Part shown: positions 7,064 to 35,623 of the stretch, piece after piece
How positions within the stretch are numbered: position 1 is the stretch's first letter
How the letters are laid out: every line of letters starts with the position of its first letter
From: Acidimicrobiales bacterium
GTDB taxonomy: Bacteria > Actinomycetota > Acidimicrobiia > Acidimicrobiales > MedAcidi-G1
Length of the DNA stretch: 35,623 nt
Assembly (NCBI GenBank): GCA_014240365.1
Contig: JAAZXC010000014.1
Coordinates: forward strand, 1-35,623
Reading direction: 5' to 3'
Program-made: the position numbers and the translations under genes
Notes under the pieces: model-generated
What the model was told of the DNA's origin: nothing
The model's input: only the letters and a program-made list of their open reading frames with translations
Databases searched by the model: none

Positions 7064-9114
7064 GGCTGGATTTCCTCTCCCGTTGCGGCTCCGCGACGGC
7101 GTCGTCCGGACCGTTGCGGTCCGGTTGTGGATATGGCGGGTCGCTGCGGGAGTGTGATGCGTCTCGTCAACCCGGGGTATTCGGCGGTGCGATGGGGGAT
7201 GGCCATGGCGTCCACGAAGTGCGCCTGGAAGGAGGGTTCGAGGGCTGTCTCGATCTTCTCGATCCGGCCAACCACGTCCTGGATTCCAGTTCGGGCCCGG
7301 CGCGATAGCAGGGCGATGACGGCGCCGGCCCCGGCGGCGTTGCCCACGCTGGAGACCTGGTCGGGGTCGCAGTCCGGGACCAGGCCCAGCACCGTCGCGC
7401 GCACCGTGTCGATGTGGCTGCCGAAGGCCCCCGCCAGCCCGATCCTGTCGATGTGATCCACCTCCAGGTGGTCCATGAGTAGTCGGATCCCGGCGTAGAG
7501 GGCTGCTTTGGCCAGTTGTATCGCCCGTATGTCGTTCTGGGTCACGAGGAGCCGTTCGCCACCGTCGCCCGGATCGTGGAGAAGGTAGGAGAAGGTCCTA
7601 CCGTCGGCTTCTATGCGGTCCGACGGCCTGGTGCCGTCCCCGCCGATCACGCCGTCGGCGGTCATGAGGCCAGCCAGCCAGAGCTCGGCCACGACCTCGA
7701 TGATGCCTGATCCGCAGATGCCGGTCACCCCGGTGGAGGCGGTCCCTTCGGCGAAGCCCTCCTCGTCGGACCACGGCTCCACCCCGATCACGCGGATCCT
7801 GGGTTGGCTGGTGGCCGGATCGATCCGGACCCGCTCGATGGCTCCCACTGTGGCCCGCTGCCCGGCGCTGATCTGCGCGCCCTCGAATGCAGGTCCGGTG
7901 GGACTCGATGCAGCCAGGATGCGGCCGCCGCCGGCAAGCACGATCTCGGCGTTGGTGCCGACGTCCACCACCAGGTACACGTCGTCGGCCTCGTGTGGCC
8001 GGGTGGCCAGGATCACAGCGGCGGTGTCGGCTCCGACGTGGCCGGCTATGCACGGCAGAACATGGACGCGGGTGGAGGCATGGGCGTTCAGGTCCAGGTC
8101 GCTGGCCGCCAGGTCGAGTGCCCCGTCGACGGCAAGGGCGAACGGCGCACCACCCAGGGGGGTGGGGTCGTAGCCCAGGAACAGGTGGTGCATGACCGGG
8201 TTTCCCACGAGGACCAATTCGAGCACCTCGTCGCGCTCGGCACCGGCCTGCACGCAGAGCTCACCCAGCAGGCTGTCCAGGGTCTCGCGCACGGCGTTGG
8301 TGAGGGCCACCTCGCCGCCCGGGTTCATCATCACGTAGGAGACCCGGCTCATCAGGTCCTCGCCGAACCGGATCTGGGGGTTCATGGCGCCGGTCGTCGC
8401 CAGGACCGTGCCGGTGGCCAGGTCGCAGAGGTGGCCGGCAATGGTCGTGGACCCGACGTCGACAGCCACGCCGAGGGCACGGTCCCGGAGGCCGGGCCAC
8501 GCTGCCACCACGAGGTTCCCGTCGCGGATCGCCACGGTGATGGTGCGCTTCCCGCTGGTAAGTGCCGCCTGGAGTTCGGCGACGATCCCGGCGGCGACCG
8601 ATATTCCCGTCATGCCCCACTGGTCGTCCAGGGCCTCGACCAGGCGTCGCACCTCGCCGATCGACTCGTCCAGGGTCGGCTCGGGCACCTCGACCAGGCG
8701 AAGGACCACGACGGGATCCAGTTCCAGGTCGCCGAGGTCCAACTCCTTGCGGACCACTTGTCGGTGGACCTGGCTTCCGGCCGGTACGTCGACCACGAGG
8801 TCGCCGCAGACCGTTGCCGCGCAGGACAGTCGGTGGGACCCGTCCAGCGGCCGACGGCCCCGGTAGGAGTCCTCTACCTTGCTGCGGGGCGATACGTGGT
8901 CGGCGGCGACGGTCATGCCGTGCTTGGCGAAGTCGCCGAAGGTCGGCTCCACCTGGCAACGCCCGCATATCCCACGGCCCCCACACACCGAGTCCAGGTC
9001 GACGCCCAGTTGTCTGGCGGCATCCAGAAGCGTCGTCCCGACGGCTATCTGGCCGCGCCGACCTGACGGCGTGAACACCACGAGGTGTTTGTCAGGTTGG
9101 TCATCGGTGCTCAT
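7060..9114 (-). CDS. RamA-like [2Fe-2S]/ASKHA corrinoid-activation protein (DUF4445 family)
   Basis: A 684-residue predicted reductive activator of corrinoid methyltransferase systems. It returns accidentally oxidised Co(II) to Co(I) in an ATP-dependent step. The N-terminus is a plant-type ferredoxin domain with C44, C50, C53 and C98 (CxxxxxCxxC...C). The C-terminal two thirds is an ASKHA (actin/Hsp70-fold) ATPase-like region with phosphate-binding VAVDVGSTTIAGHL and VVDVGTNAEIVL loops, a GICGSGIIEVVAEL block and a C-terminal GLAGAFGSHI. ATG 9114 (MSTDDQPD) was preferred over an upstream ATG at 9198, which would overlap the preceding gene and adds no family sequence; AGGACC precedes it. It overlaps mttB by 4 bp, implying translational coupling. 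The reductant is unknown. Corrinoid activators of this family are best known from anaerobes, which makes the P450/ETF context notable. Confidence 0.88.
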   Translation of the reverse strand: MSTDDQPDKHLVVFTPSGRRGQIAVGTTLLDAARQLGVDLDSVCGGRGICGRCQVEPTFGDFAKHGMTVAADHVSPRSKVEDSYRGRRPLDGSHRLSCAATVCGDLVVDVPAGSQVHRQVVRKELDLGDLELDPVVVLRLVEVPEPTLDESIGEVRRLVEALDDQWGMTGISVAAGIVAELQAALTSGKRTITVAIRDGNLVVAAWPGLRDRALGVAVDVGSTTIAGHLCDLATGTVLATTGAMNPQIRFGEDLMSRVSYVMMNPGGEVALTNAVRETLDSLLGELCVQAGAERDEVLELVLVGNPVMHHLFLGYDPTPLGGAPFALAVDGALDLAASDLDLNAHASTRVHVLPCIAGHVGADTAAVILATRPHEADDVYLVVDVGTNAEIVLAGGGRILAASSPTGPAFEGAQISAGQRATVGAIERVRIDPATSQPRIRVIGVEPWSDEEGFAEGTASTGVTGICGSGIIEVVAELWLAGLMTADGVIGGDGTRPSDRIEADGRTFSYLLHDPGDGGERLLVTQNDIRAIQLAKAALYAGIRLLMDHLEVDHIDRIGLAGAFGSHIDTVRATVLGLVPDCDPDQVSSVGNAAGAGAVIALLSRRARTGIQDVVGRIEKIETALEPSFQAHFVDAMAIPHRTAEYPGLTRRITLPQRPAISTTGPQRSGRRRRGAATGEEIQP

Positions 9115-9151
9115 TGGAAGGTCCTGGCTCCAGGGCTGGTCGGGGCCAGCC

Positions 9152-10054
9152 TCAGGCGACCGTACGGTGGCGACGGCCCTCGCGCTGTCCGCGGGCACCC
9201 AGGGCAGCGTTGGGGTCCCGATTGGCCCGGATCCAGGCGGCGCAGTCGCGATCGGCGCCGGTCATGACGTCGGCGGCCTGGATGGCGGTCTTCACCTCAG
9301 GGTGGAGCGGGCTCATGATCGCCGACGTCATGCCGTGGCTGATCGCCATGGCCAGGAAGGTGCCGGTGATCGCATGACGGTTGGGCAGGCCGAAGCTCAC
9401 GTTTGAGGCGCCGCAGGTGGTGTTCACCTTCAGCTCTTCGCGTAGGCGCCGCATCAGGGCGAACACCTGGCGCCCGGCGGAACCCATGGCGCCAATGGGC
9501 ATGACCAGTGGATCGACCACGACGTCCGCAGCCGGTATGCCATGGTCGGCGGCCCGTTCGACGATCCTCTTCGCCACGGCGAATCGGACGTCGGGGTCCT
9601 CCGATATGCCGGTCTCATCGTTGGAGATGGCGACCACCGCCGCGCCCGCCCGGGCCACCAGAGGAAGGACCCGCTCCAGGACCTCCTCCTCGCCGGTCAC
9701 CGAGTTGACCAGGGGCTTGCCCTGGTAGACGGCCAGGCCTGCCTCCAGGGCCTCGATGATCGACGAGTCGATGGAGAGGGGAACGTCGGTCACTGCCTGG
9801 ACGAGCTGGATGGCCCGGGCCAGGAGGGCGGGCTCGTCGGCCAGCGGGATGCCGGCGTTGACGTCCAGCATGAGAGCGCCTGCCTGGACCTGGGCAATGG
9901 CATCGGCCTCCACCCGACTGAAGTCGCCGGCCTTCATCTCCTCGGCGAGGAGCCTGCGGCCGGTCGGGTTGATCCGCTCGCCGATCATCACGAACGGTCT
10001 TCCGAAGCCGATAGCCACTTCACGGGTGGCGGAACTCAGGATTGTGTCGGTCAT
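9152..10054 (-). CDS. Methyltetrahydrofolate:corrinoid methyltransferase (MeTr/AcsE-like)
   Basis: A 300-residue pterin-binding TIM barrel that transfers methyl between a corrinoid protein and tetrahydrofolate. Signatures in order are VMIGERINPTGR, MLDVNAGIP, VPLSIDSS, LVNSVTGEEE, VVVDPLVMPIGA and GASNVSFGLPNR, the last being typical of AcsE/MtgA-type MeTr. Length fits the family. ATG 10054 (MTDTILSS) was chosen; an ATG at 10129 would overlap the preceding gene, and its extra 25 residues are low-complexity. In this operon it would accept the methyl from the corrinoid protein loaded by the MttB homologue and make 5-methyl-THF for MetF. It is the MtgA role in the glycine-betaine system of Desulfitobacterium. 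Direction is inferred from the neighbours. Confidence 0.92.
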   Translation of the reverse strand: MTDTILSSATREVAIGFGRPFVMIGERINPTGRRLLAEEMKAGDFSRVEADAIAQVQAGALMLDVNAGIPLADEPALLARAIQLVQAVTDVPLSIDSSIIEALEAGLAVYQGKPLVNSVTGEEEVLERVLPLVARAGAAVVAISNDETGISEDPDVRFAVAKRIVERAADHGIPAADVVVDPLVMPIGAMGSAGRQVFALMRRLREELKVNTTCGASNVSFGLPNRHAITGTFLAMAISHGMTSAIMSPLHPEVKTAIQAADVMTGADRDCAAWIRANRDPNAALGARGQREGRRHRTVA

Positions 10055-10112
10055 CTGGATCGTGCTCTCTGGTGGGGGACCGTCGGCTGTGACGGTCTCT
10101 GGGTGGGTTGAC

Positions 10113-10412
10113 TCAGTCCTCGACGCCACCCGAACGCACCAGGCGCTCGAGCCGGTCCTTCGGGTAGGACCCGTCGAGGCGGGCGGTCTCTTCTGCCACG
10201 GCTGCTGCCATGTCGGCCGGGCATGGAGTGCTGACGCGGCGCCATTGGGTGATGTACGAGTCGGAGTCCTCCATCCCGGCCACCATGGCTGCGCGGTCTA
10301 TGGCGTGCTGGAAGCGTGCGTCGAGCAGCGCCTTCTCCCTGGTCCTGCCCTGCTGGGCGGTTACCTGTGCGGGGATATCGCGCCAGTAGATGGTGACGAG
10401 CTTCGCTGCCAT
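10113..10412 (-). CDS. Small conserved 'virulence factor'-type protein (PF13769-like)
   Basis: A 99-residue protein starting MAAKLVTIYWRDIPAQV, followed by a charged helical region with FQHAIDRAAM and DSDSYITQWRR. This resembles the short conserved family named 'virulence factor' in databases. The name reflects a historic hit and not a known function; the molecular role is unknown. It lies 4 bp after the DUF1638 gene and 58 bp before the MeTr gene on the same strand, entirely inside the corrinoid methyltransferase operon. A job in corrinoid methyl transfer or reactivation is therefore likely. No Cys cluster, signal peptide or membrane segment is visible. The longer upstream reading (to 10619) overlaps DUF1638 and was not used. 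Confidence 0.78.
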   Translation of the reverse strand: MAAKLVTIYWRDIPAQVTAQQGRTREKALLDARFQHAIDRAAMVAGMEDSDSYITQWRRVSTPCPADMAAAVAEETARLDGSYPKDRLERLVRSGGVED

Positions 10413-10416
10413 GGGT

Positions 10417-11121
10417 TCAGGCGCTCCTCGTGTAACCGGTACCGGATCCGACGGTAACCAGGTCGGCTGCGGCGGGCTCCCGACCGGTGGAGGCAACGGC
10501 GGGTAGGCCCAGCCGGACGATGCTTGCCTCCAGGTTGCCGAGGCCCGTGCGTCGAAGCTCGAAGTCCAGGCCGAGTCGCACAGCGGCGGCCCTGGCCCTC
10601 TCGACGAGCTCTGGGTCATCTGATTGGGCCAGGTAGACGAGGCGTCGGTAGTTGGCGAACACCTGGGGCAGCAGCTCCGGGTGTGTGTCCAGCCAGAAGG
10701 CCTTCACGACCAGGCGGTCGAAGTGCTTCACCAGGTAGTCGGTGAGGAAGAAGGTGCCCAGTTCCTCGGCGTGCAGCTGGGCGAATGCCGAGGAGCCGGT
10801 GAAGAACTCGTAGCAGTGGTCACCCGGCAGGCGTTCCACGCCCAGTTCCGCGCATACGGCGTCGAGGCGTCCTCCCGTGCCGCAGTCTCCGTAGCCCACG
10901 AAGATCCTGTCGTAGCGTCCCGCTGCGGCACGAACGCGCTCGGCGACGGCGTCGGGGATCACGTCGGGGGTGTTGTGGTACGAGGCGGGAAGGCATTCCA
11001 CGTCAACGTGGTCGAGGCCGTTGGCCTGTACGACCTGGAGTAGTTCGCGGGCGAGCGCACCACAGGCGACGACGAGGGTGCGACCGCCCGGTGCCGTTGG
11101 GGCGCCGGGTGGGTTGGTCAT
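10417..11121 (-). CDS. DUF1638 protein in corrinoid operon
   Basis: A 234-residue protein matching the DUF1638 family, whose biochemical function is not established. The N-terminus has TLVVACGALARELLQV, followed by FVGYGDCGTGGRLDAVC and LPGDHCYEFFTG, the family hallmarks. Cysteines C20, C43, C80, C90 and C103 are candidates for metal or corrinoid-related chemistry. It begins 10 bp after the corrinoid protein gene and ends 4 bp before the small conserved gene, so all three are almost certainly co-expressed. ATG 11121 (MTNPPGAP) was chosen; the upstream extension runs into the corrinoid gene and is Pro-rich. A role as chaperone, activator or corrinoid loader for the neighbouring methyltransferase system is a reasonable hypothesis, not a demonstrated one. 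Confidence 0.85.
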   Translation of the reverse strand: MTNPPGAPTAPGGRTLVVACGALARELLQVVQANGLDHVDVECLPASYHNTPDVIPDAVAERVRAAAGRYDRIFVGYGDCGTGGRLDAVCAELGVERLPGDHCYEFFTGSSAFAQLHAEELGTFFLTDYLVKHFDRLVVKAFWLDTHPELLPQVFANYRRLVYLAQSDDPELVERARAAAVRLGLDFELRRTGLGNLEASIVRLGLPAVASTGREPAAADLVTVGSGTGYTRSA

Positions 11122-11131
11122 CTGGAGCGGT

Positions 11132-11839
11132 TCAGGCTGCTGCGGCGCGCCGCTCGGCGATGAGGCTGGAGGCGGTCTCTGCGGCCACGGCGGCGTCACG
11201 GCAGTAGGCATCGGCACCGATGGCCTCACCGAACTCGTCGTTCAGCGGTGCGCCGCCCACGAGCACTATGTAGTCACCGCGGAGGCTCTTCTCCACCAGG
11301 GTGTCGATGACGACCTTCATGTACGGCATCGTCGTGGTCAGGAGGGCCGACATCCCGAGGATGTCCGGCTTGTGCTCGTCCAGTGCTCCGAGGAACTCCT
11401 CGACGTCGGTGTTGATGCCGAGGTTGATCACCTCGAAGCCGGCGCCCTCGAGCATCATTGCGACCAGGTTCTTGCCGATGTCGTGGATGTCGCCCTTGAC
11501 GGTGCCGATGACGACCTTGCCAATGGGCTTGGCGCCGGTCTCGGCCAGGAGGGGCCGCAGGATGGCCATGCCGGCCTTCATGGCGTTGGCGGCCAGGAGG
11601 ACCTCGGGAACGAAGAGGATGCCGTCGCGGAAGTCGATGCCCACGATCCGCATTCCCTCTACGAGGGCGTCGTTCAGGACCCGGTTGGGGTCCCAGCCGC
11701 GCCCGAGCAGCAGGTTGGTGCCCTCCGTGATCTCATCGGCCAGGCCGTCGTAGAGATCGTCGTGCATCTGGGCGGTGAGCTCGTCGTCCGGCAGGTCCGC
11801 CAGGATGATCTCGTCGTCGATGGGGTTCTCTTCAGCCAT
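11132..11839 (-). CDS. mtgC: Corrinoid (B12-binding) methyl-carrier protein, MtgC/MttC type
   Basis: A 235-residue two-domain corrinoid shuttle. Residues ~20-100 form the four-helix 'cap' (B12-binding 2) domain, with LNDALVEGMRIVGIDFRDGILFVPEVLLAANAM. Residues ~105-235 form the Rossmann-like cobalamin domain. D117-I-H119-D-I-G gives the lower-axial His ligand H119, followed by GMSALLTTTM and VLVGGAPLND for the nucleotide-tail pocket. It carries methyl as methyl-Co(III) between the MttB homologue and MeTr. It is the first gene of the leftward operon, preceded by the promoter and operator cluster described at 11954-12044. ATG 11839 was chosen because the upstream frame has no family sequence and would run past the predicted promoter. 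The mtgC name depends on betaine being the substrate. Confidence 0.93.
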   Translation of the reverse strand: MAEENPIDDEIILADLPDDELTAQMHDDLYDGLADEITEGTNLLLGRGWDPNRVLNDALVEGMRIVGIDFRDGILFVPEVLLAANAMKAGMAILRPLLAETGAKPIGKVVIGTVKGDIHDIGKNLVAMMLEGAGFEVINLGINTDVEEFLGALDEHKPDILGMSALLTTTMPYMKVVIDTLVEKSLRGDYIVLVGGAPLNDEFGEAIGADAYCRDAAVAAETASSLIAERRAAAA

Positions 11840-11953
11840 GATGCGCTCCGTTGCGAATCGGGGACCACCGTCGGCGGCCTGCTTGAGCCTTTGGACGCCC
11901 TGTGGGCTGCACGGGACTGACGCAACGCCAGCCAGAAGAACCAACAATCGGTT

Positions 11954-12044
11954 CCCATGGAGTGGGAAGCACCCGTATGATGGGAACTCTACAGATCGAG
12001 CGTCGGTCTGTCCACACTTTGGGAACTAAAGCCCACAATGTGGG
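11954..12044. promoter_or_regulatory. Cluster of four CCC-N7-GGG operator-like sites (predicted IclR targets)
   Basis: Four 13-bp dyads lie in the 241-bp divergent region: CCCATGGAGTGGG (11954-11966), CCCGTATGATGGG (11972-11984), TCCACACTTTGGG (12011-12023) and CCCACAATGTGGG (12032-12044). The shared form is YCC(A/G)-N5-TGGG, three of the four followed by AA. Site 1 extends to a 17-bp inverted repeat TTCCCATGGAGTGGGAA. Sites 2 and 3 overlap the start point and -35 of the leftward promoter. Site 4 lies just upstream of TATACC, a possible -10 for iclR, which suggests autoregulation. CCC-N7-GGG alone is common in GC-rich DNA; the clustering and the A/T constraint are what carry the call. Confidence 0.6.
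11986..12014 (-). promoter_or_regulatory. Predicted promoter of the corrinoid/C1 operon
   Basis: On the minus strand, TGGACA (12014-12009) and TAGAGT (11991-11986) are separated by exactly 17 bp. They match TTGACA in 5 of 6 positions and the actinobacterial -10 pattern TANNNT. Transcription would start near 11979, leaving a leader of about 140 nt before the corrinoid-protein ATG at 11839. The -35 overlaps operator-like site 3 and the start point overlaps site 2, so regulation by the divergent IclR protein is likely. Seen by eye; no transcript data. Confidence 0.6.
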
Positions 12045-12080
12045 ATATACCTGAGATCCGGACAACAAGGGAGTCTGACA

Positions 12081-12833
12081 GTGCAGACGGTTCAGAGCAT
12101 CGACCGTGCATTCCAGATCCTCGAAGAGGTGGCCAGTGACCCGGGGGGCATAAGCGACCTCTCGCGGCGCCTCGATCTCCCGACCAGCACGGTGGCCAGG
12201 TTGTTGACCACCCTCGAGCGCCTCGGGGCCGTCGAGCGACTGGTGGACGACAACGGCTACCGCATCGGATCGGCCATCGTGACCATGGCAGGCAGCATCG
12301 ACCCCAACCAGAGTCTCTTCGCCGTCGGCCAGCCCCACATGGTCGACCTTGTGGAGCAGGTGGCCGAGGCGGTCGGACTCTCCATCCCCGCCGGCTACGA
12401 CGTCCACTACATAGGCCAGGTGAACTGCGCCAACCCCGTCCAGGTGAGGGACTGGACGGGTGTCAGCCTGCCCATGCACGTCGTGCCGTCAGGCATGGTG
12501 GTCCTCGCCCACTGGCCCGACGAGGCCATTGACCGCTACCTGTCCAGGAAACTGGATCGGTACACGCCCGGGTCGGTGACCGATCCGCGACGCATCCGGG
12601 AACGCATCGAACGGATTCGGGACGAGGACGTGTCGTGGATGGAGGAGGAGTTCGCCGAAGGGATCAGCTCGGTGGCCGCACCGTTGTTCAACGCATCCGG
12701 TGTGGTGGTCGGGGCCCTCCACAGCCACGGGCCCACCTACCGCTTCCCGGACGAGGCGCTACGGGACGTCATCTCCGGCCGGGTGCGGTCCACCGCCCAG
12801 GCCATCTCGGCTGCCCTCGGCCACGTGGCCTGA
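12081..12833 (+). CDS. IclR-family transcriptional regulator
   Basis: A 250-residue regulator. Residues 1-65 form the winged helix-turn-helix (VQSIDRAFQILEEVA, ISDLSRRLDLPTSTVARLLTTLERLGAVER). The rest is the IclR effector domain, with the conserved closing block EFAEGISSVAAPLFNASGVVVGALHSHGP. The start is GTG at 12081, with GGGAG seven bases upstream. It is transcribed divergently from the ten-gene corrinoid/C1 operon, with dyad sites in between, and ends in a terminator shared with the SDR gene. Effector candidates from the neighbourhood are glycine betaine, carnitine or dimethylglycine; the sequence does not show which. Whether it represses or activates is not known, but a site over the predicted -35 fits repression. 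Confidence 0.92.
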   Translation: MQTVQSIDRAFQILEEVASDPGGISDLSRRLDLPTSTVARLLTTLERLGAVERLVDDNGYRIGSAIVTMAGSIDPNQSLFAVGQPHMVDLVEQVAEAVGLSIPAGYDVHYIGQVNCANPVQVRDWTGVSLPMHVVPSGMVVLAHWPDEAIDRYLSRKLDRYTPGSVTDPRRIRERIERIRDEDVSWMEEEFAEGISSVAAPLFNASGVVVGALHSHGPTYRFPDEALRDVISGRVRSTAQAISAALGHVA

Positions 12834-21179: not shown

Positions 21180-22387
21180 TGGTCGCGGCCCCGGGTCTGG
21201 ATCTGGATCACGTTGTCCAGGGCAGCCAACTGTGTGGTGACCTCGGAGGTCACCTCTCCGGATACATCAATGATTGCCATCGCCGCGTTCGAGCCCTCAA
21301 AGACCCTGTTTGCCATGGTCTGGACGTTTATGTCGGCTTTCCTGAGCACCGCCAACGCTGCCGCCAGTACGCCAACCCGATCGAAGTGGCGAATTGTGAT
21401 GGTGGACGTTCCCACCCGTGTCCGGACCACGTTCACGCAGTTCGTCGGATCACCGGCCCGGTAGGCCTCGATGACATCGATGGCGCCCGCCGAGGTGGCG
21501 TCCTGGGCCTGCTGGGTGGAGGCACCGATGTGGTGGGTGCCTACGACCATCGGGTGTGCCGCCAGCCTGGAGGCGAACTCGCCGACGCTGCTGTCCGGTT
21601 CGTCCCTGAACACGTCCAGGCCCGCCCTGATGCCCTTCGATTCGATTGCGTCCAGGAGGGCCTGTTCGTCGACCACCTCTCCACGGCTGGTGTTCAGGAG
21701 GATCGAATTCGGCTTCATCTTTCCGAGGAAGTCGGCGTCCACGAGGTTCACGGTCCGTTCACCGCCGGGCACGTGGATCGACACGATGTCGGACTCGGCG
21801 AGGATCGCATCCAGGTCGTCGACCAGGCGGATGCCGACGGAGCGGATGCGCGCCTCGATGTCGGGCCGCCGACCGGCCTTGCGTTCGGCGATCACGGCCA
21901 TGCCGAACGAGCGGACCCGCTCGGCGACGGCGAGGCCGATCTCGCCCACGCCGATGATGCCGAAGGTCCTGCCCATCAGGCCATCGGCCTTCGAGTAGTC
22001 CTTCTTGTTCCAGATGCCGTTTCGTAGGTCGTTGGCGGCTGCCGGGATGTGCCGGTCGAGGGCCAGCAGGAGGCCGAGGGTCAGCTCGGCGACGGCCACC
22101 GAGTTGGTGCCGGGCACATTGCATACGTAGATGCCGGAGCCGGCTGCGGCATTGCAGTCAATGGTGTTGGTGCCGGCGCCGGCACGGACAATGAGGCCCA
22201 GGTTGTCGGACCTGTCAATGGTCGCCGCGGTCACCTTGGTGCTGCGTACGACCAGGACGTCGACGCCTTTGATTACATCGGGTATGTCGTCGGCGTCCAG
22301 CTCGGGAGAGACGATGCACTCGTCTCCGGCCTGGCGGAGGAGGTCGACGTAGGAGTCGGGAAGTGCATCGGCAAACAGGATCTTCAT
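21176..22387 (-). CDS. serA: D-3-phosphoglycerate dehydrogenase with ACT domain
   Basis: A 403-residue NAD-dependent 2-hydroxyacid dehydrogenase that commits 3-phosphoglycerate to serine. It has the substrate loop VRAGAGTNTID, the NAD-binding motif GIIGVGEIG, and the catalytic Arg in LNTSRGEVVDE, Glu in LDVFRDEP and His in VGTHHIGAST. The last ~75 residues (TITIRHFDRVGVLAAALAVL onward) form an ACT regulatory domain, the usual site of serine feedback. It heads a leftward operon serA-DUF1015-pabBC and is divergent from the carnitine operon across 188 bp. Serine/glycine and C1-THF metabolism are linked through glycine hydroxymethyltransferase, so placement beside a glycine-betaine pathway makes sense. 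Confidence 0.93.
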   Translation of the reverse strand: MKILFADALPDSYVDLLRQAGDECIVSPELDADDIPDVIKGVDVLVVRSTKVTAATIDRSDNLGLIVRAGAGTNTIDCNAAAGSGIYVCNVPGTNSVAVAELTLGLLLALDRHIPAAANDLRNGIWNKKDYSKADGLMGRTFGIIGVGEIGLAVAERVRSFGMAVIAERKAGRRPDIEARIRSVGIRLVDDLDAILAESDIVSIHVPGGERTVNLVDADFLGKMKPNSILLNTSRGEVVDEQALLDAIESKGIRAGLDVFRDEPDSSVGEFASRLAAHPMVVGTHHIGASTQQAQDATSAGAIDVIEAYRAGDPTNCVNVVRTRVGTSTITIRHFDRVGVLAAALAVLRKADINVQTMANRVFEGSNAAMAIIDVSGEVTSEVTTQLAALDNVIQIQTRGRDQ

Positions 22388-22575
22388 GGGAACTCCTTCG
22401 GCACGCCGACGCCGGCACCTCTGGTGCGGACGGCGGGGTAACCTGCGCGGGTCTGGGATGGCTCTCGGCCGCTGGAAAGACTACGTATGGCCATGCCGGA
22501 GCACAATGGGCGGTCCGCGACAAGTTCGATCGGGCCAGGTCACCCTGCCGTTGGCGGGGAGTCAGGGGATGGGCA

Positions 22576-23469
22576 ATGACCCGAGCCATGAACCGCGAGG
22601 TGATCATCTCGTGTGCCGTTACCGGCTCCGGTGACACGACCCGGCGCAGCGAGCACGTGCCGGTCACGCCTGAACAGATCGCAGCTTCAGCTCTGGACGC
22701 TGCCGCCGCAGGTGCGGCCATCGTGCACTGCCACGTCCGGGACCTCGAATCCGGAAAGGGGACCAGGACGGTCGCCCTCTACCAGGAGGTGGTGGAGAGG
22801 ATCCGGGAGAAGGACGACGAGGTCATCATCAACCTGACCGCCGGTATGGGCGGCGACCTCAACGTTGGACCGGATGACGACCCGATGTCATGGCAGCCCG
22901 GCACCGACCTTGTGGGTGGCCTCGAACGCCTGGCCCATGTGGAGGCGATCCGTCCGGACATCTGCTCCATGGACTGTGGTTCGCTGAACTTCGGTGACGA
23001 CAATGAGGTGTATGTCTCCACACCGTCGATGCTCAGGATCATGGCGGCACGGGTCCGCGAGCTGGGCGTGCGTCCCGAGCTGGAGGTCTTCGATACCGGA
23101 AACCTGTGGTTCGCCGAGACGATGATCGCCGAGGGACTGATCGACCCCCCGTACTGGATCCAGCTCTGCCTGTCGATCCCGTACGGCACGCCGCTCGACG
23201 TCGGGATCCTCCAGGCAATGGTGAACCGTCTGCCCGCCGAGGCCGAGTTCACGTCGTTCGGTCTGGGCGCCATGCAGATGCCCATGGTCACCCAGTCGGT
23301 GATGCTGGGAGGCCACGTGAGGGTCGGGTTGGAGGACAACCTCTACCTGGAACGCGGGGTGATGGCCACCAACGCCCAACTGGTGGCGAAGGCCGTGACG
23401 CTCGTCGAGCTGATGGGCGCCCGTATCCAGTCGCCGGCCGATGCGCGCCGGCTGCTTGCGATCGGATGA
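22576..23469 (+). CDS. BKACE-family beta-keto acid cleavage enzyme, probable 3-dehydrocarnitine cleavage
   Basis: A 297-residue zinc-dependent TIM-barrel protein (DUF849/BKACE). The zinc ligands H51 and H53 are in IVHCHVRD, followed by INLTAGMGG, SMDCGSLNF, ELEVFDTGNL and VRVGLEDNLYLERG. In carnitine catabolism (CdhC of Pseudomonas) the family condenses 3-dehydrocarnitine with acetyl-CoA to betainyl-CoA plus acetoacetate. A carnitine dehydrogenase-thioesterase fusion follows 24 bp downstream, which makes that reaction the best reading. ATG 22576, with GGGGA six bases upstream, was preferred over ATG 22588. The preceding 188 bp (divergent from serA) holds no confident promoter and no CCC-N7-GGG dyad that I could pick out. 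cdhC would be the symbol if activity is confirmed. Confidence 0.85.
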   Translation: MTRAMNREVIISCAVTGSGDTTRRSEHVPVTPEQIAASALDAAAAGAAIVHCHVRDLESGKGTRTVALYQEVVERIREKDDEVIINLTAGMGGDLNVGPDDDPMSWQPGTDLVGGLERLAHVEAIRPDICSMDCGSLNFGDDNEVYVSTPSMLRIMAARVRELGVRPELEVFDTGNLWFAETMIAEGLIDPPYWIQLCLSIPYGTPLDVGILQAMVNRLPAEAEFTSFGLGAMQMPMVTQSVMLGGHVRVGLEDNLYLERGVMATNAQLVAKAVTLVELMGARIQSPADARRLLAIG

Positions 23470-23493
23470 TCCGGACTCCGAGCTGAAGGGTCC

Positions 23494-24978
23494 GTGCCAG
23501 TGATGCAGACTCGCACGATCGGGGTTGTGGGCACCGGGGTGATCGGTGCCGGCTGGGCCGTACGGGCCCTGGCCCGTGGCCATGACGTGCTGGCCTGGGA
23601 CCCGGCACCTGGAGCCCAGGAGCGGCTTCGCTCCGCCGTGTCGAGGGCATGGCCGTCGGCTCTCAGGCTGGGGCTGTTCCCGGGCGCCGATCCAGCCCGG
23701 ATCACCTGGATGGAAACCGTCGAGGAACTGGCAGCCCGAGCGGACTGGATCCAGGAGAACGCACCGGAGAATGAGGATGTAAAGCGGCCGTTGATGCGCA
23801 CCCTGGCGGACCATTCGGGCCCCGAGGTGGTGATCGCCTCCAGCTCGTCAGGCCTGCTGCCTACACGGCTCCAGGATGGTTGCCGGCACCCGGAACGGAT
23901 CCTCATAGGTCATCCGTTCAACCCCGTCTACCTTCTGCCGCTGGTCGAGGTCGTTGCCGGTGTGCAGACCTCTCAGGCGGCCATGGACGTCGCGGTTGCC
24001 CACTATGACGACCTGGTGATGTACCCGCTGGTGGTACGTACCGAGATCGAGGGCTATCTCTCGGACCGTCTCCAGGAGGCCCTGTGGCGCGAGGTGCTCC
24101 ATCTCGTCAACGACGGTGTGGCGACCACGGGCGAACTCGACGATGCCGTGAGCTACGGCCCTGGGCTGAGGTGGGCCGGCATGGGCACCAACCTCACGTT
24201 CCACCTGGCCGGAGGCGAAGGCGGCATGCGCCACATGCTCAGCCAGTTCGGGCCGGCCCTGAAGCTCCCGTGGACGAAGCTGGTGGCACCCGAGCTGACC
24301 GACGGTCTGGTCGAGGCCATGGCGGACGGTTGCGAGGCACAGGCCGACGGTCGGTCGGTTGAGCAGTTGGAACGCCTCAGGGACGACTACCTGATCGGTG
24401 TGATGCGCTCGCTGCGCCCACTGGAACTGGGTGCCGGTCGTCTCATTGCCGAGCGCGAGGCTCGTATCCACGAAGCCTCCGGCATCACCGCGTGGGCTGC
24501 TGGTGACCCGGTATCGGCGCCGCTGGCCCTGTACGAGGCGCCGGTCGAGCCGGACTGGGTCGACTACAACGGCCATATGTCGGAGTGGGCCTTCCTGACC
24601 GCTTTCGGCTGGGCCAGCGACAAGTTGTTCCGGTACATCGGGATCGACGAGGAGTACCGCGCTGCTGGATACTCGTTGTTCACGGTGGAGACCCACCTCA
24701 ATTATGTGAAGGAGGCATCGCTGGGGGATCCGCTGCGCTTCACGACACAGATACTCGGCGTCGACGCCAAACGCCTCCATCTCTTCCATGCCATGCGCCA
24801 CGCTGGAACCGGCGAACTGCTGTGCACCACCGAGCAGATGCTGCTCCACGTGGACACCGGGACCGGTTCCACGGCGCCGATCCTGCCGGGCCCGGCCTCA
24901 ACCCTTGCCGCTATCGCCGCCGTCCATGCCGACCTGCCGGTCCCACCACAGGTGGGGCGGGTCATGGGCCTCACCTGA
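23494..24978 (+). CDS. L-carnitine dehydrogenase / betainyl-CoA thioesterase fusion
   Basis: A 494-residue two-domain protein. Residues ~1-320 are a 3-hydroxyacyl-CoA dehydrogenase-type fold: NAD loop GVVGTGVIGAGWA, IASSSSG, catalytic His in IGHPFNPVYLLPLVEVV, and a helical C-terminal domain with GLRWAGMGTNLTFHLAGGEGG, as in L-carnitine 3-dehydrogenases. Residues ~345-494 are a hot-dog thioesterase of 4-hydroxybenzoyl-CoA type with VDYNGHMSE (catalytic Asp/Asn region). This pairs oxidation of carnitine to 3-dehydrocarnitine with hydrolysis of betainyl-CoA to glycine betaine, the steps flanking the BKACE reaction. The same fusion is known in rhizobial carnitine catabolism. The GTG at 23494 has GAAGGG upstream at short spacing; ATG 23503 is an alternative. 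Substrate is inferred from fusion and neighbours. Confidence 0.87.
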   Translation: MPVMQTRTIGVVGTGVIGAGWAVRALARGHDVLAWDPAPGAQERLRSAVSRAWPSALRLGLFPGADPARITWMETVEELAARADWIQENAPENEDVKRPLMRTLADHSGPEVVIASSSSGLLPTRLQDGCRHPERILIGHPFNPVYLLPLVEVVAGVQTSQAAMDVAVAHYDDLVMYPLVVRTEIEGYLSDRLQEALWREVLHLVNDGVATTGELDDAVSYGPGLRWAGMGTNLTFHLAGGEGGMRHMLSQFGPALKLPWTKLVAPELTDGLVEAMADGCEAQADGRSVEQLERLRDDYLIGVMRSLRPLELGAGRLIAEREARIHEASGITAWAAGDPVSAPLALYEAPVEPDWVDYNGHMSEWAFLTAFGWASDKLFRYIGIDEEYRAAGYSLFTVETHLNYVKEASLGDPLRFTTQILGVDAKRLHLFHAMRHAGTGELLCTTEQMLLHVDTGTGSTAPILPGPASTLAAIAAVHADLPVPPQVGRVMGLT

Positions 24979-29213: not shown

Positions 29214-31145
29214 ATGAGCCAGCGCCTCACGACGCCGATGGTCCGCGATGACGGAGTTCTCCGCGAGGCGACCTGGGAGGAGGCCCTCCAACGGGCCGCC
29301 GACGGGTTCCGCTCGGTGCTCGACGCACACGGACCTACGGCCTTCGGCATGTTCAGCTGTTCGAAGACCACCAACGAGGTGAATTACGCCGCACAGCGGT
29401 TCACCCGCAGGGTCATCGGTTCCAACAACATCGACAGCTGCAACCGAACTTGACACGCTCCCAGCGTCGTCGGTCTGGCGACAGTCTTCGGAGCGGGTGG
29501 CGGTACCTCCTCGTATGTGGAGGTCGAGAATGTGGACGCCGTCGTCATGTGGGGCACGAACGCCCGTAACGCCCACCCGATCTTCTTCCACCACGTGATC
29601 AAGGGCATCGACAATGGTGCCCGCTCGTGGACCATTGATCCACGACGGACCAGCACAGCTAAGTTCACCGACTCGTGGCTGGGCCTGAACGTCGGAACCG
29701 ACATCGGTCTGGCGAACGGCGTGGCCCGTGAGATCATCGCAGCGGGTCTCACCGATGACGAGTTCATCCGCAATGCCACCACCGGCTACGAGGAGTTCGT
29801 GGCATTCGTGGAACCGTGGACTCTGGAGCACACCGCTGAGGTGACCGGCGTGCCGGCCGAGGCGATCCGGGACCTGGCACACGGCTACGCCACCGCACCC
29901 ACAGCCCAGATCTGCTGGACGCTGGGCATCACCGAGCACCACACGGGCGTCGACAACGTCCAGTCCCTCTGCAACCTGGCGTTGCTCACCGGACACGTGG
30001 GCCGCTGGGGTTCGGGCCTTGTTCCCCTGCGCGGCCAGAACAACGTGCAGGGTGGCGGCGACATGGGTGCCCTACCCAACAAGTTGACCGGGTTCCAGGA
30101 CGTGGAGGACGACGAGGTTCGGGCGAAGTTCGAGGCGGCATGGGATTGCGAGATCCCTCCGAAGAACGGCTGGAACCTCACCCAGATGTTCGAGGCCATG
30201 GAGCGCGACGAGTTGAAGGCCGTGTACGTCATCGGCGAGAACCCAGCAGACTCGGAGGCAGACGTCAAGCACGCACGGGCCATGTTGGAGAAGCTCGACA
30301 TGCTGGTCGTACAGGACGTTTTCATGACCCGGACGGCAAAGATGGCCGACGTGGTCCTGCCCGCCGCCCTTGGATGGGCAGAGTCCGACGGCACTGCCAC
30401 CAACAGCGAGCGTCGGGTCCAGCGAATGCGCGCAGCCGTGCCACCTCCCGGTCAGGCCCGTCAGGAGATCGGGATCATCAACGACCTGGCCGCCCTCATG
30501 GGCGACGACGCCTGGGGGAACCCGACGGCCGAGGAATTCTGGGAGGAACTCAGGACCGTGTCACCAATGCACGGCGGGATGTCGTGGGAGCGTCTCGAGG
30601 CGGAGGGCGGGATCCAGTGGCCCTGTCCGACCGAGGACCATCCGGGGAGCCCTTTCCTGCATGGTCGTCTATGGGAACGGCCGGTCCAGGGCCGACGGGC
30701 CCCCTTCTCGTGCGTGGAGGACCGTCCGCCGCTGGACGTGCTTAGCGAGGAATTCCCGTTGCGTCTCACGACCGTCAGGGCACTGGACTCGTACAACACA
30801 GGTGTCCAGACCAGCGGGTACTCATCGCCGATTCGCAGCGGGGAGGCCCTCCAGGTGTCGGTTGTGGATGCGGCAGCCCTGGGTGTCGTGGCTGGCGAGC
30901 GTGTGCTTGTCTCCTCGCGGCGCGGCGCCATCCGGATGACGATCGGAATCGAGCTGGAGTTGGCTGTGGGCCTCTGTCACACGACCTTCCACTTCCCCGA
31001 ACTGGCCGACGTGAACCAGATCACCAGCGACGCCGTTGACCCGAAGTCGGGGACCGCTGAGTTCAAGGCGGCGGCGATCCGCATCGACCGACTGGACGAG
31101 GACGACCGGGCGGAACTTGACGAGAGGGTCGGGGCAGGTGCCTGA
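29214..31145 (+). CDS. fdhA: Formate dehydrogenase catalytic (Mo/W-bis-MGD) subunit, selenoprotein with in-frame TGA at 29451-29453
   Basis: A 643-residue molybdopterin oxidoreductase read through a TGA at codon 80. Upstream sequence ends NNIDSCNRT and downstream continues HAPSVVGLATVFGAGG in the same frame, exactly the FdhF-type context where Sec or Cys ligates Mo/W (CRVUHGPSV in E. coli). A SECIS-like hairpin follows (separate entry), so the TGA encodes selenocysteine rather than breaking the gene. Later blocks VDAVVMWGTNARNAHPI, LLTGHVGRWGSGLVPLRGQNNVQGGGDMG, VYVIGENPADSE and the C-terminal MoCo-binding CHTTFHFPE are intact. It oxidises formate to CO2. The protein lacks the usual N-terminal Fe-S region; that part is a separate gene at 32967. 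The start MSQRLTTPMVR corresponds to the point in fused FdsA just after the first [4Fe-4S] domain. Confidence 0.93.
29456..29495 (+). promoter_or_regulatory. SECIS-like stem-loop for selenocysteine insertion
   Basis: Directly after the TGA, CGCTCC (29456-29461) pairs with GGAGCG (29490-29495). An upper stem GUCGUC/GGCGAC (29466-29471 with 29477-29482, one U-G) closes a GGUCU loop at 29472-29476. Exactly 18 nt separate UGA from GGUC, the same distance and the same GGUC loop as in the E. coli fdhF SECIS. The hairpin lies inside coding sequence, as bacterial SECIS elements do, and would bind SelB. Confidence 0.85.
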
Positions 31146-32970
31146 CCTCTACTTCAGCGCCGTCGACGAGGCCACCGATGCCGAGAAGATGGCGGTCGAC
31201 GAGGCCATATCCGACTGGGGTCCGGTCACGATCCGGGTGTCCGAACGGCTCGTGACCGGCGGTCGTGCCCGCGCCCGTGAGCGCCGGCACCTCCTGCTGC
31301 CCGCACTCCACGCTCTTCAACGTGCCGCCGGTTGGATCAGCCCCGGAGGGCTCGACCATGCCTGCCGAGTCCTTGAGGTGCCACCGGCCGAGGCCTACGG
31401 CGTGGCGACCTTCTACCACCTGTTCACCCATGAGCCGCCGGCCGCCGACGACACGATCCACGTGTGCGACGACATCGCCTGTCGCCTCGTAGGGGCATTG
31501 GGCCTGATCGACGACCTGCGGACCGGGGGCCACAATGTGAAGGCCAGCCCGTGTCTGGGCCAGTGCGAGCGGGCTCCGGCGGTGATGGTCCAGCGCATGG
31601 GCCGGCCGGACCTGACGGTCACCGCCACCGACGGTGGAACCGTGAGGGTGGCCGATGTGGCCGTGGCCATCGACTCGGGCGTCTCGACCCCGTCGGTGAC
31701 GGTTCCCCAGGAGGGCGACCCCGGCCTTCGCCTTTTGGCACGTGTCGGCGTGGTGGATCCCACCAGCCTCGAGGAATACAGGGCCAGCGGCGGCTATCAG
31801 GCACTCGAGGCCTCGGTGGCCCTCGGCGGCGATCAGGTCATTGCCGAGGTGACCGCCTCCGGTCTCTCCGGACGCGGTGGAGCGGCCTTTCCGACCGGCA
31901 TCAAGTGGCGGGGCGTCGCCGACCAGGAGGGGCGCCCGCGTCATCTCGTGTGCAACGCGGACGAGTCCGAGCCCGGAACCTTCAAGGACCGGGTGATCAT
32001 GGAGGGTGATCCCTTCTCCCTGGTGGAGGCCATGACGGTGGCAGGCCTGGCGATCGGTGCCGAGCAGGGCTGGCTGTACATCCGCGGCGAGTACCCCGTG
32101 GCGATCGAACGTCTCTCCGGTGCCATCTCAGCGGCCCGTAGTGCCGGGCTGCTGGGCGACGATGTCGCCGGCTCCGGTCGACGCTTCGACATCTCCCTCC
32201 GTAGCGGCGCCGGTGCGTACATATGCGGTGAGGAGACGGCGCTGTTCAACTCGGTTGAGGGCTTCCGTGGCGAGCCGCGCAACAAGCCGCCTTTCCCGAC
32301 CACGCACGGGCTCTTCGGAGAGCCGACGGCCATCAACAACGTGGAGACGCTCGTCAACGTGCTGTCCGTCGTGCTGGCCGGCAGCGCCGCCTACGCGGCG
32401 GTGGGTACCGAGCGCTCACCGGGCACCAAGCTCTTCTGCCTCTCAGGCCGGGTGAACCGTCCTGGTACCTATGAGGTCGAGTTCGGAGCGACGCTGGGCG
32501 ACCTGATCGATCTGGCCGGCGGCCTTACGGATGGAAGCCGGTTGCGGACCGTGCTGCTGGGTGGTGCGGCCGGGAGCTTCGTGGGGCCGGAGTCCCTGGA
32601 CCTCCCGTTGACCCTGGAGGCCACGCGGGAAGCTGGTGTATCGCTGGGGTCGGGCGTGATCATGGTGTTCGACGAGTCCGACGACATGGTCGAGACCGTG
32701 CGCCGGATAGCCGAGTTCTTCCGTGACGAGTCGTGCGGCCAGTGCGTGCCGTGCAGGGTCGGAACTGTTCGCCAGGAGGAGGTCCTGGTCCGCCTGGGTC
32801 GCGGCGCCGTCCTCGACGACGAGCGGGAACTGCTCGACGACCTGGCAGCCGTGATGAAGGACGCCTCGATCTGTGGCCTGGGCCAGACTGCGTCCGGTGC
32901 CGTGAGGAGTGCCCTGGACATGGGGCTCCTGGCCGTAATCGCTGAAGGGATTGAAGGGGGAGGGCAGTGA
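31138..32970 (+). CDS. Fused diaphorase subunit of NAD-dependent formate dehydrogenase (FdsG-FdsB / NuoE-NuoF type)
   Basis: A 610-residue fusion. Residues ~25-175 are a NuoE/FdsG thioredoxin-like [2Fe-2S] domain with C110, C115, C139 and C143 (CDDIAC...CLGQC). From ~195 a NuoF/FdsB part follows: FMN motif GRGGAAFPTGIKW (245-257), NADESEPGTFKDR (273-285), GAGAYICGEETALFNSVEG for NAD, an SLBB segment, and a [4Fe-4S] site at C533, C536, C539 and C579 (ESCGQCVPC). It passes electrons from formate oxidation to NAD+. GTG 31138 overlaps the fdhA stop by 8 bp and is in frame with VPDLYFS; an upstream ATG at 31036 lies within fdhA and adds only shadow sequence. In R. capsulatus these are two proteins, FdsG and FdsB. 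Confidence 0.93.
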   Translation: MPDLYFSAVDEATDAEKMAVDEAISDWGPVTIRVSERLVTGGRARARERRHLLLPALHALQRAAGWISPGGLDHACRVLEVPPAEAYGVATFYHLFTHEPPAADDTIHVCDDIACRLVGALGLIDDLRTGGHNVKASPCLGQCERAPAVMVQRMGRPDLTVTATDGGTVRVADVAVAIDSGVSTPSVTVPQEGDPGLRLLARVGVVDPTSLEEYRASGGYQALEASVALGGDQVIAEVTASGLSGRGGAAFPTGIKWRGVADQEGRPRHLVCNADESEPGTFKDRVIMEGDPFSLVEAMTVAGLAIGAEQGWLYIRGEYPVAIERLSGAISAARSAGLLGDDVAGSGRRFDISLRSGAGAYICGEETALFNSVEGFRGEPRNKPPFPTTHGLFGEPTAINNVETLVNVLSVVLAGSAAYAAVGTERSPGTKLFCLSGRVNRPGTYEVEFGATLGDLIDLAGGLTDGSRLRTVLLGGAAGSFVGPESLDLPLTLEATREAGVSLGSGVIMVFDESDDMVETVRRIAEFFRDESCGQCVPCRVGTVRQEEVLVRLGRGAVLDDERELLDDLAAVMKDASICGLGQTASGAVRSALDMGLLAVIAEGIEGGGQ

Positions 32971-33833
32971 ACGACACGCCGGTAGCGGTTCCGACCACAT
33001 TGGTGGAGATCACCCTTGACGGTGAGGCCGTGAGGGTTCCCAAGGGCTCGACGATCCTGGATGCCTGCCGCCGTGAGGGAATCGACACCCCGACGCTCTG
33101 CTGGGCCGAGAACCTGACTCCGGTCAACGTCTGTCGCGTCTGTGTCGTGGAGGTCGAGGGCTCACGTGTGCTCGTGCCGTCGTGCTCTCGACCGGTGGAG
33201 GATGGCATGGTCATCGCCACGGACTCCGAACGGGTCAGGACCAGTCGGCGGATGGTCTACGAACTGCTCGCCTCTTCCGTTGAGATGGATCGGGCCGACC
33301 GCGAGGTCCACGAATGGATGGAGCACTACGGGGCACGTCCGGAACGGATGGGGAAGCGTTCGGAGATCGCCACCGTGGCCCAACCGGTGAAGGTCCAGGA
33401 CGACCTCTACGTTCGGGACTATGAACGTTGCATCCTCTGCTACAAGTGCGTCGAGGCCTGTGGCGACGATGCGCAGCAGACCTTCGCGATCGCCACGGCA
33501 GGCAGGGGCTTCGATGCCCACATCTCCACCGAGCACGATGTCACCCTGCCCGACTCGGCCTGCGTCTACTGCGGCAACTGCATCGGCGTCTGCCCTACCG
33601 GAGCCCTGACATTCAAGACGGAACACGACATGCGCCTGGCCGGTACCTGGGACGAGGACATCCAGGAGGTCACCACCACCGTCTGCTCGTTCTGTGGTGT
33701 GGGATGCAACCTCGAGCTGCACACCCAGGACGACCGCATTGTGAAGGTGACATCACCGTCGGACCACTCGGTCACCCACGGACACCTGTGCATCAAGGGT
33801 CGATTCGGATGGCAGCAGCACGCCCACTCCTGA
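32967..33833 (+). CDS. Detached N-terminal Fe-S part of formate dehydrogenase alpha subunit
   Basis: A 288-residue protein starting at GTG 32967, overlapping the previous stop (GTGA). It carries a [2Fe-2S] ferredoxin fold (C45, C56, C59, C73), two [4Fe-4S] sites (C155, C158, C161, C165 and C199, C202, C205, C209), and the molybdopterin-oxidoreductase [4Fe-4S] domain (C240, C243, C247, C275, with K277 in CIKG, the Lys that relays electrons in FDHs). In ordinary FdsA this whole region is fused in front of the catalytic domain; here it ends at KGRFGWQQHAHS, just where fdhA begins at MSQRL. The His/Cys cluster normally between the [2Fe-2S] and the double cluster is missing: residues ~104-135 contain no Cys. 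It probably docks against FdhA to complete the Mo site. Its 3' end overlaps the methyltransferase gene by 41 bp. Confidence 0.9.
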   Translation: MNDTPVAVPTTLVEITLDGEAVRVPKGSTILDACRREGIDTPTLCWAENLTPVNVCRVCVVEVEGSRVLVPSCSRPVEDGMVIATDSERVRTSRRMVYELLASSVEMDRADREVHEWMEHYGARPERMGKRSEIATVAQPVKVQDDLYVRDYERCILCYKCVEACGDDAQQTFAIATAGRGFDAHISTEHDVTLPDSACVYCGNCIGVCPTGALTFKTEHDMRLAGTWDEDIQEVTTTVCSFCGVGCNLELHTQDDRIVKVTSPSDHSVTHGHLCIKGRFGWQQHAHS

Positions 33834-34485: not shown

Positions 34486-34581
34486 GGCTGAACACTACGA
34501 CGGTCACCTGCGGGGGACATACAGGGCCGGTGTCGTGGGTAGTCGTACTGTTCTCCAGCCTGCCGTTTGAGACGATCATTT

Positions 34582-34594
34582 CCCATGATACGGG
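34582..34594. promoter_or_regulatory. Isolated CCC-N7-GGG dyad upstream of ABC binding-protein gene
   Basis: CCCATGATACGGG is the reverse complement of operator-like site 2 (11972-11984) apart from one central base; including the next base, 13 of 14 match. It lies about 55 bp upstream of the predicted -35 of the gene at 34761. It suggests the IclR regulator also acts on this transporter, with the distance fitting an activating or looping position. Confidence 0.5.
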
Positions 34595-34648
34595 AGGGCC
34601 TGGCCGCATTACGAAAGGGTGACGTATGGGCCTGTAGGGAAGATTCAT

Positions 34649-34677
34649 GTGACAGACGTCCCATTCGCGCTTAGCGT
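34649..34677 (+). promoter_or_regulatory. Predicted promoter of ABC substrate-binding protein gene
   Basis: GTGACA (34649-34654) and TAGCGT (34672-34677) are 17 bp apart, matching TTGACA in 5 of 6 positions and TANNNT. The predicted start near 34684 leaves a ~75-nt leader with GGAGG at 34747-34751. The -10 and spacing resemble the promoter of the corrinoid operon (TGGACA-N17-TAGAGT). The rest of the 275-bp gap (34486-34760) shows only the dyad at 34582. Confidence 0.55.
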
Positions 34678-34760: not shown

Positions 34761-35623
34761 ATGTTTCGATGTGCGCGCGTTCCACTCGCGCTGCTTTTGG
34801 GCTTCTCACTGATCGCCGGAGCCTGTGGCTCCGACGATGCCGATGAGGCCGCTCCTGCGGCGACGACCGCTGCTCCTGCTGCGACGACCGCTGCTCCTGC
34901 TGCTCCTGCGACGACTGCTGCTCCGGCCCCTGAGGCTGTGGCGACGGTCGAGGACCATCTTGGTGATGGTTCCCTCGGGACCGTCGAGGTTGGTCCCGGC
35001 GAGGAGATCCAGATTCGTTCGTTGAACGCCATTTCCGGTGATGTGGCGTTCCTTGGTATTCCGAACCAGCGTGGTGTCGAGCTCGCTGTTCGTGACTACG
35101 GGCCCATTGGTGGCCATGACGTCACGATAGGCACCGGTCTTGATGACCTCTGTTCGGCTGATGGTGGTCAGGCTGCGGCCCAGACAATCGTTGCCGACGA
35201 GGATGTCGTAGGCATTATCGGTACCAGTTGTTCTGGTGCGGCTACGGCTGCTTCGCCTCTCGTTTCTGAGGCCGGCATGGTGATGATCTCGGGTTCGAAC
35301 ACGTCTCCGGCACTCACCAGCGACCTTGCTGGTACGGCTGGTCCGAACTACAACCCGGGCTACTACCGCACGGCGCACAACGACCTCTACCAGGGTGCTG
35401 CTGCAGCGAACTTCGCCATTGACGTGCTCGGCGTGTCGACCGCTGCTGCGATCCATGACGGTGACCCGTACACCCAGGGTCTTGCGCAGGCTTTTGCTGA
35501 TGCGTTCGAGGCTGGTGGTGGCACGATCACCGGGTTCACGGCTGTGAACAAGGGCGACACCGACATGGTTCCGGTCCTGACCGAGATCGCTGCCGGTTCA
35601 CCCGAGATGTTGTTCTTCCCGAT
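34761..35623 (+). CDS. ABC transporter substrate-binding lipoprotein, type-1 periplasmic binding fold (cut by window edge)
   Basis: The first 287 codons of an exported binding protein. A hydrophobic signal peptide (LALLLGFSLIAGAC) ends in a lipobox with C22. A low-complexity Ala/Thr/Pro linker of ~35 residues follows. From ~residue 80 it has the Leu/Ile/Val- or amide-binding fold: IRSLNAISGDVAFLGIPNQRGVELAV, VVGIIGTSCSGAATAASPLVSEAGMVMISGSNTSPAL, and YYRTAHNDLYQGAAAANFAI. The substrate cannot be read from the fold. Given the dyad at 34582 and the neighbours, a quaternary amine or its relative is possible; branched-chain amino acids are the family default. ATG 34761 has GGAGG at 9-nt spacing; ATG 34755 is too close. 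Codons strongly favour GCT and GGT compared with the GCC/GGC of neighbours, as expected of a highly expressed gene. Permease and ATPase genes lie outside the window. Confidence 0.85.
   Translation, partial: MFRCARVPLALLLGFSLIAGACGSDDADEAAPAATTAAPAATTAAPAAPATTAAPAPEAVATVEDHLGDGSLGTVEVGPGEEIQIRSLNAISGDVAFLGIPNQRGVELAVRDYGPIGGHDVTIGTGLDDLCSADGGQAAAQTIVADEDVVGIIGTSCSGAATAASPLVSEAGMVMISGSNTSPALTSDLAGTAGPNYNPGYYRTAHNDLYQGAAAANFAIDVLGVSTAAAIHDGDPYTQGLAQAFADAFEAGGGTITGFTAVNKGDTDMVPVLTEIAAGSPEMLFFP

Follow-up and report, generated by a model that had tools for sequence, protein, structure and literature searches.

The window analysed here, a 35,623-bp stretch of an Acidimicrobiales genome, carries a dyad at 34582-34594 in front of an ABC binding-protein gene, and the question raised by this locus is whether that gene is controlled together with the betaine/carnitine system encoded elsewhere in the window. 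The first-pass annotation had proposed such shared control on the strength of a similar dyad 22 kb away and had drawn from it a prediction of the transporter's ligand. We consider it probable that the dyad is genuinely bound by the IclR-family protein encoded at 12081-12833, which would place betaine/carnitine demethylation under common control with an importer of the ProXVW type. The same 17-bp putative operator stands at the regulator gene, at the divergent mtgC operon, and at the binding-protein gene 22 kb off, and this arrangement is kept in the family. For uncultured marine Actinobacteria, the result would be a regulatory link, open to testing, that joins the uptake of betaine-type osmolytes to their corrinoid-dependent demethylation, with a ligand class predicted for an importer otherwise annotated as branched-chain amino acid.

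The dyad upstream of the binding-protein gene

The dyad itself is confirmed. CCCATGATACGGG occupies positions 34582-34594 on the forward strand and forms the core of the 17-bp sequence TTCCCATGATACGGGAG (34580-34596, forward strand), an IclR-type putative operator upstream of the binding-protein gene. Positions 11972-11984, read on the opposite strand, give CCCATCATACGGG, one mismatch from CCCATGATACGGG and exactly the one-base difference reported earlier; within the window the 13-mer occurs with at most one mismatch at these two places only. Counting it across the whole assembly (G000, 2.22 Mb), a check that had been set for the claim, gave four matches when one mismatch was allowed, and a reversed control pattern had none; the two matches outside the window sit within coding ORFs that resemble PEP carboxykinase and indole-glycerol-phosphate synthase genes by sequence. 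With up to three mismatches, the window holds 11 occurrences against 14.6 expected, which is chance level, so the bare 13-mer by itself is weak evidence. This count favors the view that the dyad is a chance match in front of an unrelated branched-chain amino acid binding protein, a view that we regard as highly improbable given the conservation described below. A looser search pattern, TTCCC-N7-GGGAA with one mismatch, was rejected as too permissive, as it hit 58 places versus 34 for its reversed control.

Putative operator copies between iclR and mtgC

To score the site as a whole, we took 47 distinct sites from iclR promoters across 29 family genomes and derived a 17-bp matrix from them; the training set included the iclR sites of the window itself and left out the binding-protein sites. 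Four copies of the 34580-34596 motif lie in the stretch that separates iclR (12081-12833) from the divergent mtgC (start 11839, reverse strand), and the iclR promoters of family relatives bear the same dyads. Given on the forward strand, operator A (TTCCCATGGAGTGGGAA, 11952-11968, score 19.9) covers the candidate -35 element of iclR, and operator B (CACCCGTATGATGGGAA, 11970-11986, score 14.5), the "site 2" of the first-pass annotation, covers its candidate -10 element. The weak operator C (TGTCCACACTTTGGGAA, 12009-12025, score 7.5) covers the candidate -35 element of mtgC, and operator D (AGCCCACAATGTGGGAT, 12030-12046, score 17.1) has its center near position -59 relative to the candidate start site of mtgC. 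A, B, and D are conserved, and C is kept in close relatives. With a score of 18.3, the site at 34580-34596 is the second best of the window behind A, and the top four scores (A, 34580-34596, D, and B) stand far ahead of the rest, which begin at 7.5. Scores equal to 18.3 are expected 0.010 times per 35.6 kb and 0.64 times per genome; the latter figure makes the rank alone suggestive and insufficient, so that conservation decides. Neither the carnitine genes (22363) nor the dimethylglycine genes (13531) proved to have an operator in front of them in the matrix scan of the window.

The family consensus, TTCCCRYAWTRYGGGAA, is a palindrome of 7+3+7 bp that agrees in length and in its RY...RYG core with the group-1 IclR consensus GKTYCRYW3-4RYGRAMC, with the outer T/A changed to C/G. 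Group-1 IclR regulons (PcaU, PobR, PcaR, and NdgR type; Suvorova and Gelfand 2021, PMC8222616) have tandem operators 18-22 bp apart and combine autoregulation with the control of one or two further operons. The system predicted here resembles them in its 17-bp palindrome, its RY-N3-RY core, its tandem spacing (18 bp for A-B and 21 bp for C-D), and its autoregulation together with one or two further operons. It differs from them in its outer half-sites, which are TTCCC/GGGAA rather than GKTYC/GRAMC, and in its target, a corrinoid betaine demethylation system. The locus at 34580 has one full site only, in contrast to the tandem pairs at iclR/mtgC.

Conservation of the putative operator in relatives

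In marine Acidimicrobiia relatives with long enough contigs, the formate dehydrogenase and binding-protein genes lie 21-28 kb from iclR, as they do in the window. For phylogenetic footprinting, the 300 bp preceding the binding-protein gene's start codon were scanned in each of 20 genomes, and the best motif match was assigned a p-value against dinucleotide shuffles. The best match falls at -140 to -195 bp of the start codon in 19 of the 20. It reaches p<=0.05 individually in 15 genomes, with degenerate versions in four more, although these p-values come from related MAGs and are not independent. Perfect copies, TTCCCACAATGTGGGAA, precede the binding-protein gene in G030 and G034, while genera g4 and g6 have a low-scoring variant, TTRCCAC..GTGGCAA. 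No site was found before the binding-protein gene in G011 (among the 20) or in G006. The motif is also missing upstream of 12 paralogous binding-protein genes elsewhere, and no convincing site precedes proV in G001, G005, G010, and G012, in which the formate dehydrogenase genes and proV have no binding-protein gene between them.

When 48 whole family genomes were searched with the profile, the best matches were chiefly the iclR promoter and the binding-protein promoter, along with, in two other genera, a position some 6.3 kb upstream of iclR; the remainder included an IclR2 paralogue in G017 and G022. A chance match is hard to reconcile with conservation at an aligned position in many genomes, with paralogues that have no site, and with the binding-protein promoter being a top match of the whole-genome search. 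It is the footprinting, beyond the 13-mer alone, that supports the proposed shared control of the transporter and the betaine system.

The position 6.3 kb upstream of iclR is thus a further locus with a strong copy of the operator. In G030 (L215:2099-2115), this copy sits between mttB and the formate-THF ligase gene, in front of the latter, and similar places were seen in genomes of g2 and g3; this window has none there.

The candidate regulator

The protein encoded at 12081-12833 (forward strand) matches HTH_IclR (7.1e-14) and IclR_C (1.1e-30), and its closest NCBIfam models are BhcR and PcaR/PcaU/PobR, both below their cut-offs. We propose it as the binder of all the sites described above. 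The operator could instead be real and read by an IclR2 paralogue, or by both proteins, in which case the loci would share a motif rather than one regulator. Such paralogues, 33-43 percent identical, are present in many relatives, and in G022 (L213:5879-5895) and G017 (L214:13107-13123) a strong motif copy stands before the IclR2 gene. However, IclR2 of the present genome (L212, G000:C162) has no such site before its gene, and the 12081 IclR has four adjoining sites in nearly all family genomes. We therefore consider a reading by IclR2 unlikely, and the absence of an operator at this genome's IclR2 makes the 12081-12833 protein the best candidate for the regulator that would read the sites. 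We found no IclR regulon for betaine demethylation described in the open-access literature searched. In G017 and G022, IclR2 adjoins a second MttB and a dimethylglycine-type dehydrogenase.

Predicted betaine and carnitine catabolism in the window

The divergent operon begins with an mtgC-like corrinoid protein gene (11132-11839, reverse strand; NCBIfam MtgC glycine betaine corrinoid protein, 9.5e-60, below cut-off). The remaining demethylation operon (5522-11229, reverse strand) encodes an MttB-superfamily methyltransferase, a RACo-type activase, a pterin methyltransferase, and two small proteins. The MttB protein matches 4yyc (7e-204) and the glycine betaine methyltransferase 9yce (8e-116). 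Thus, an MttB-superfamily gene without pyrrolysine, a corrinoid protein gene, and a pterin methyltransferase gene are found together, the gene combination of glycine betaine demethylation (MtgB/MtgC), with the substrate being a prediction. On the forward strand, a fusion of BKACE with a 3-hydroxyacyl dehydrogenase-thioesterase (22363-24978) probably leads from carnitine to betaine, and the formate dehydrogenase genes (29517-33833; Mo subunit and NuoEF/NuoG-like subunits) are conserved neighbors of the binding-protein gene. With formate-THF ligase and a dimethylglycine/sarcosine-type dehydrogenase also encoded in the window, we infer from the protein families a route that would lead from carnitine or betaine towards glycine and CO2.

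MtgBCD demethylation is known in the marine bacterium Ruegeria pomeroyi (PMC12478193). As in the MtgBC(D) systems of that species and of Desulfitobacterium, the MttB-superfamily, corrinoid, and pterin methyltransferase genes stand together here, but the actinobacterial cluster additionally contains RACo, an ABC importer, and an IclR regulator, the last of which has no mention in the Ruegeria paper.

The corrinoid operon also includes two genes at 10113-11229 (Pfam Virulence_fact PF13769, DUF1638), which are kept with it in relatives. Downstream of the formate-THF ligase gene, 530-2656 encodes a FadH/OYE-type flavoenzyme with weak likeness to mycofactocin-linked and bile-acid enzymes.

The binding-protein gene and its predicted ligand

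The binding-protein gene (34761-35623, forward strand) encodes a lipoprotein with a signal peptide, a lipobox, an Ala/Thr/Pro-rich linker, and a LIV-type module, inside which the gene stops at the contig end. The visible part of its product matches Peripla_BP_6 (2.5e-23), and the LIV-type domain matches the leucine-binding protein 2LBP (E 4e-24). A worry attached to the original proposal, that the protein might be specific for branched-chain amino acids, is thus half right, because the visible domain is of LIV type. Comparison of the module of a relative with the leucine-binding protein pocket showed Ser79 and Thr102 kept, which speaks for the branched-chain reading, and Tyr202 and Glu226 replaced by Phe and Asp. 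The visible domain therefore shares the fold family of the LivJ/LivK leucine-binding proteins, but it differs from them in these two pocket residues and in serving as a fusion module.

Against the branched-chain reading stand the relatives, where the same slot is occupied by ProX, or by a LIV-ProX fusion, next to ProV. In G014 (same genus) and G022, which are intact at the slot, ProX is followed by ProV, and proV-proW adjoin. In G017, G021, G025, and G029, the first thing encoded on the ProV contig is the tail of a LIV module, fused to ProX, and proV-proW lie on these continuing contigs. The formate dehydrogenase contig stops within the start of the LIV module in G021, G025, and G029 and just past the operator and start codon in G017. 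Relatives' contigs thus break in the same LIV domain as the window's contig, as is expected from that domain being repeated within relatives' genomes. A search of the rest of this genome's assembly recovered neither a piece of the missing 3' half of the window gene nor a close orthologue of ProX or ProV. Since relatives carry LIV-ProX with ProV-ProW at this slot, the window gene most likely encodes a LIV-ProX fusion and is followed by ProV-ProW. In one relative (L130, G021:C4), two tandem and apparently identical ProX domains stand behind the LIV module end, just before proV.

E. coli ProX is matched by the relatives' ProX domain at 2.8e-30, with Trp65, His69, Trp140, Cys142, and Trp188 kept, which we take to be the betaine cage. 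In these residues, and in the accompanying ProV and ProW genes, the system is like E. coli ProXVW (ProU); it is unlike it in that ProX stands behind a LIV-type module in several relatives, that the system lies in a catabolic cluster, and that ProX would lie beyond the visible window gene. The tie of the transporter to the carnitine/betaine system is supported by the gene neighborhoods, while the predicted ligand is a weaker point of the original proposal: the betaine-type class is suggested by the ProX domain of relatives, outside the truncated window gene.

Candidate promoters and predicted mode of regulation

The genes behind the two dyads had also been credited with similar predicted promoters having 17-bp spacers, which is only partly upheld. 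A promoter scan gave a candidate mtgC promoter with such a spacer, TGGACA-17-TAGAGT (11986-12014, reverse strand), whose bases are kept in relatives. The iclR candidate promoter (forward strand) has an 18-bp spacer, and the consensus promoter scan at the binding-protein gene returned none above threshold. The sub-threshold candidate there, GTGACA-17-TAGCGT (34649-34677, forward strand; GTGACA at 34649 and TAGCGT at 34672), has 8/12 consensus matches and is kept in four relatives (G009, G007, G002, and G003). All start sites are predictions.

Under the proposed mechanism, the regulator would bind A/B and C/D as tandem pairs and repress its own promoter through A and B; the coverage of the iclR -35 and -10 elements by these two sites suggests such autorepression. 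When a betaine-type compound is present, the regulator would act from upstream sites on mtgC and on the binding-protein gene, the latter being predicted to encode a LIV-ProX fusion lipoprotein and to be followed by proV-proW, so that betaine-type uptake would be controlled jointly with demethylation and methyl-group oxidation. We lean moderately towards this action being activation. In G014 and in genera g2, g4, and g6, the operator begins about 54 bp ahead of a candidate -10 element (TAGAGT/TAGGGT or similar), and at mtgC, operator D begins 55 bp ahead of TAGAGT, a near-equality that suggests activation from an upstream site.

The same protein and site could also work by repression, with the regulator blocking the uptake and demethylation genes and releasing them on substrate binding. 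The positions of A and B over the iclR promoter and of C over the mtgC -35 element would fit, and repressors are common in the IclR family (PMC8222616). We nevertheless hold repression to be the less probable mode, though a serious one, as the operator at the binding-protein gene never overlaps a candidate core promoter and its center lies near -58 in four genera, the same as site D at mtgC. Counting against our preferred reading, activation from upstream, is the geometry of the window itself: here and in the closest relatives, the candidate promoter, itself conserved, is shifted downstream, with the operator centered at about -96, some 38 bp further from the candidate promoter than in other genera.

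Mosaic binding proteins in relatives

Among 80 related loci, the LIV module is mostly stand-alone, at about 430-500 aa. In-frame fusions of the module occur in the marine Acidimicrobiia family and in a small number of other MAGs; the partner is SBP_bac_5, Bmp, OpuAC, a second Peripla_BP_6, or a hydrolase of the beta-lactamase fold, and the open frames span about 770-1250 aa (L219, L220, L222, L225, L231, L232, L235, L239, L043, and L054). Assembly artefacts are an unlikely source of these fusions, which are in-frame ORFs with stops on both sides and recur with the same partner families in many independent MAGs. We found no description of mosaic binding proteins of this sort in the open-access literature searched, and both automatic annotation and short-read assembly would obscure them. 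Tentatively, and with confidence falling a little short of even, we suggest that the window gene encodes a so far undescribed type of mosaic lipoprotein, in which a highly conserved, swappable LIV-type module is fused to unrelated binding domains or to a serine hydrolase. One anchored protein might in this way collect several nutrients for several importers, each copy being controlled by the adjoining pathway.

Other mosaics involve ProX (L138, L134, L135, and L124), namely Bmp-SBP_bac_3-ProX in G009 and G002 and ProX-SBP_bac_3-SBP_bac_5 in G063, and in G066 an amino-acid-type domain is N-terminal to ProX. One LIV-SBP_bac_5 frame (L224:1-4077) has N-terminal PD40 beta-propeller repeats; its contig is labelled Verrucomicrobia, perhaps through a binning error.
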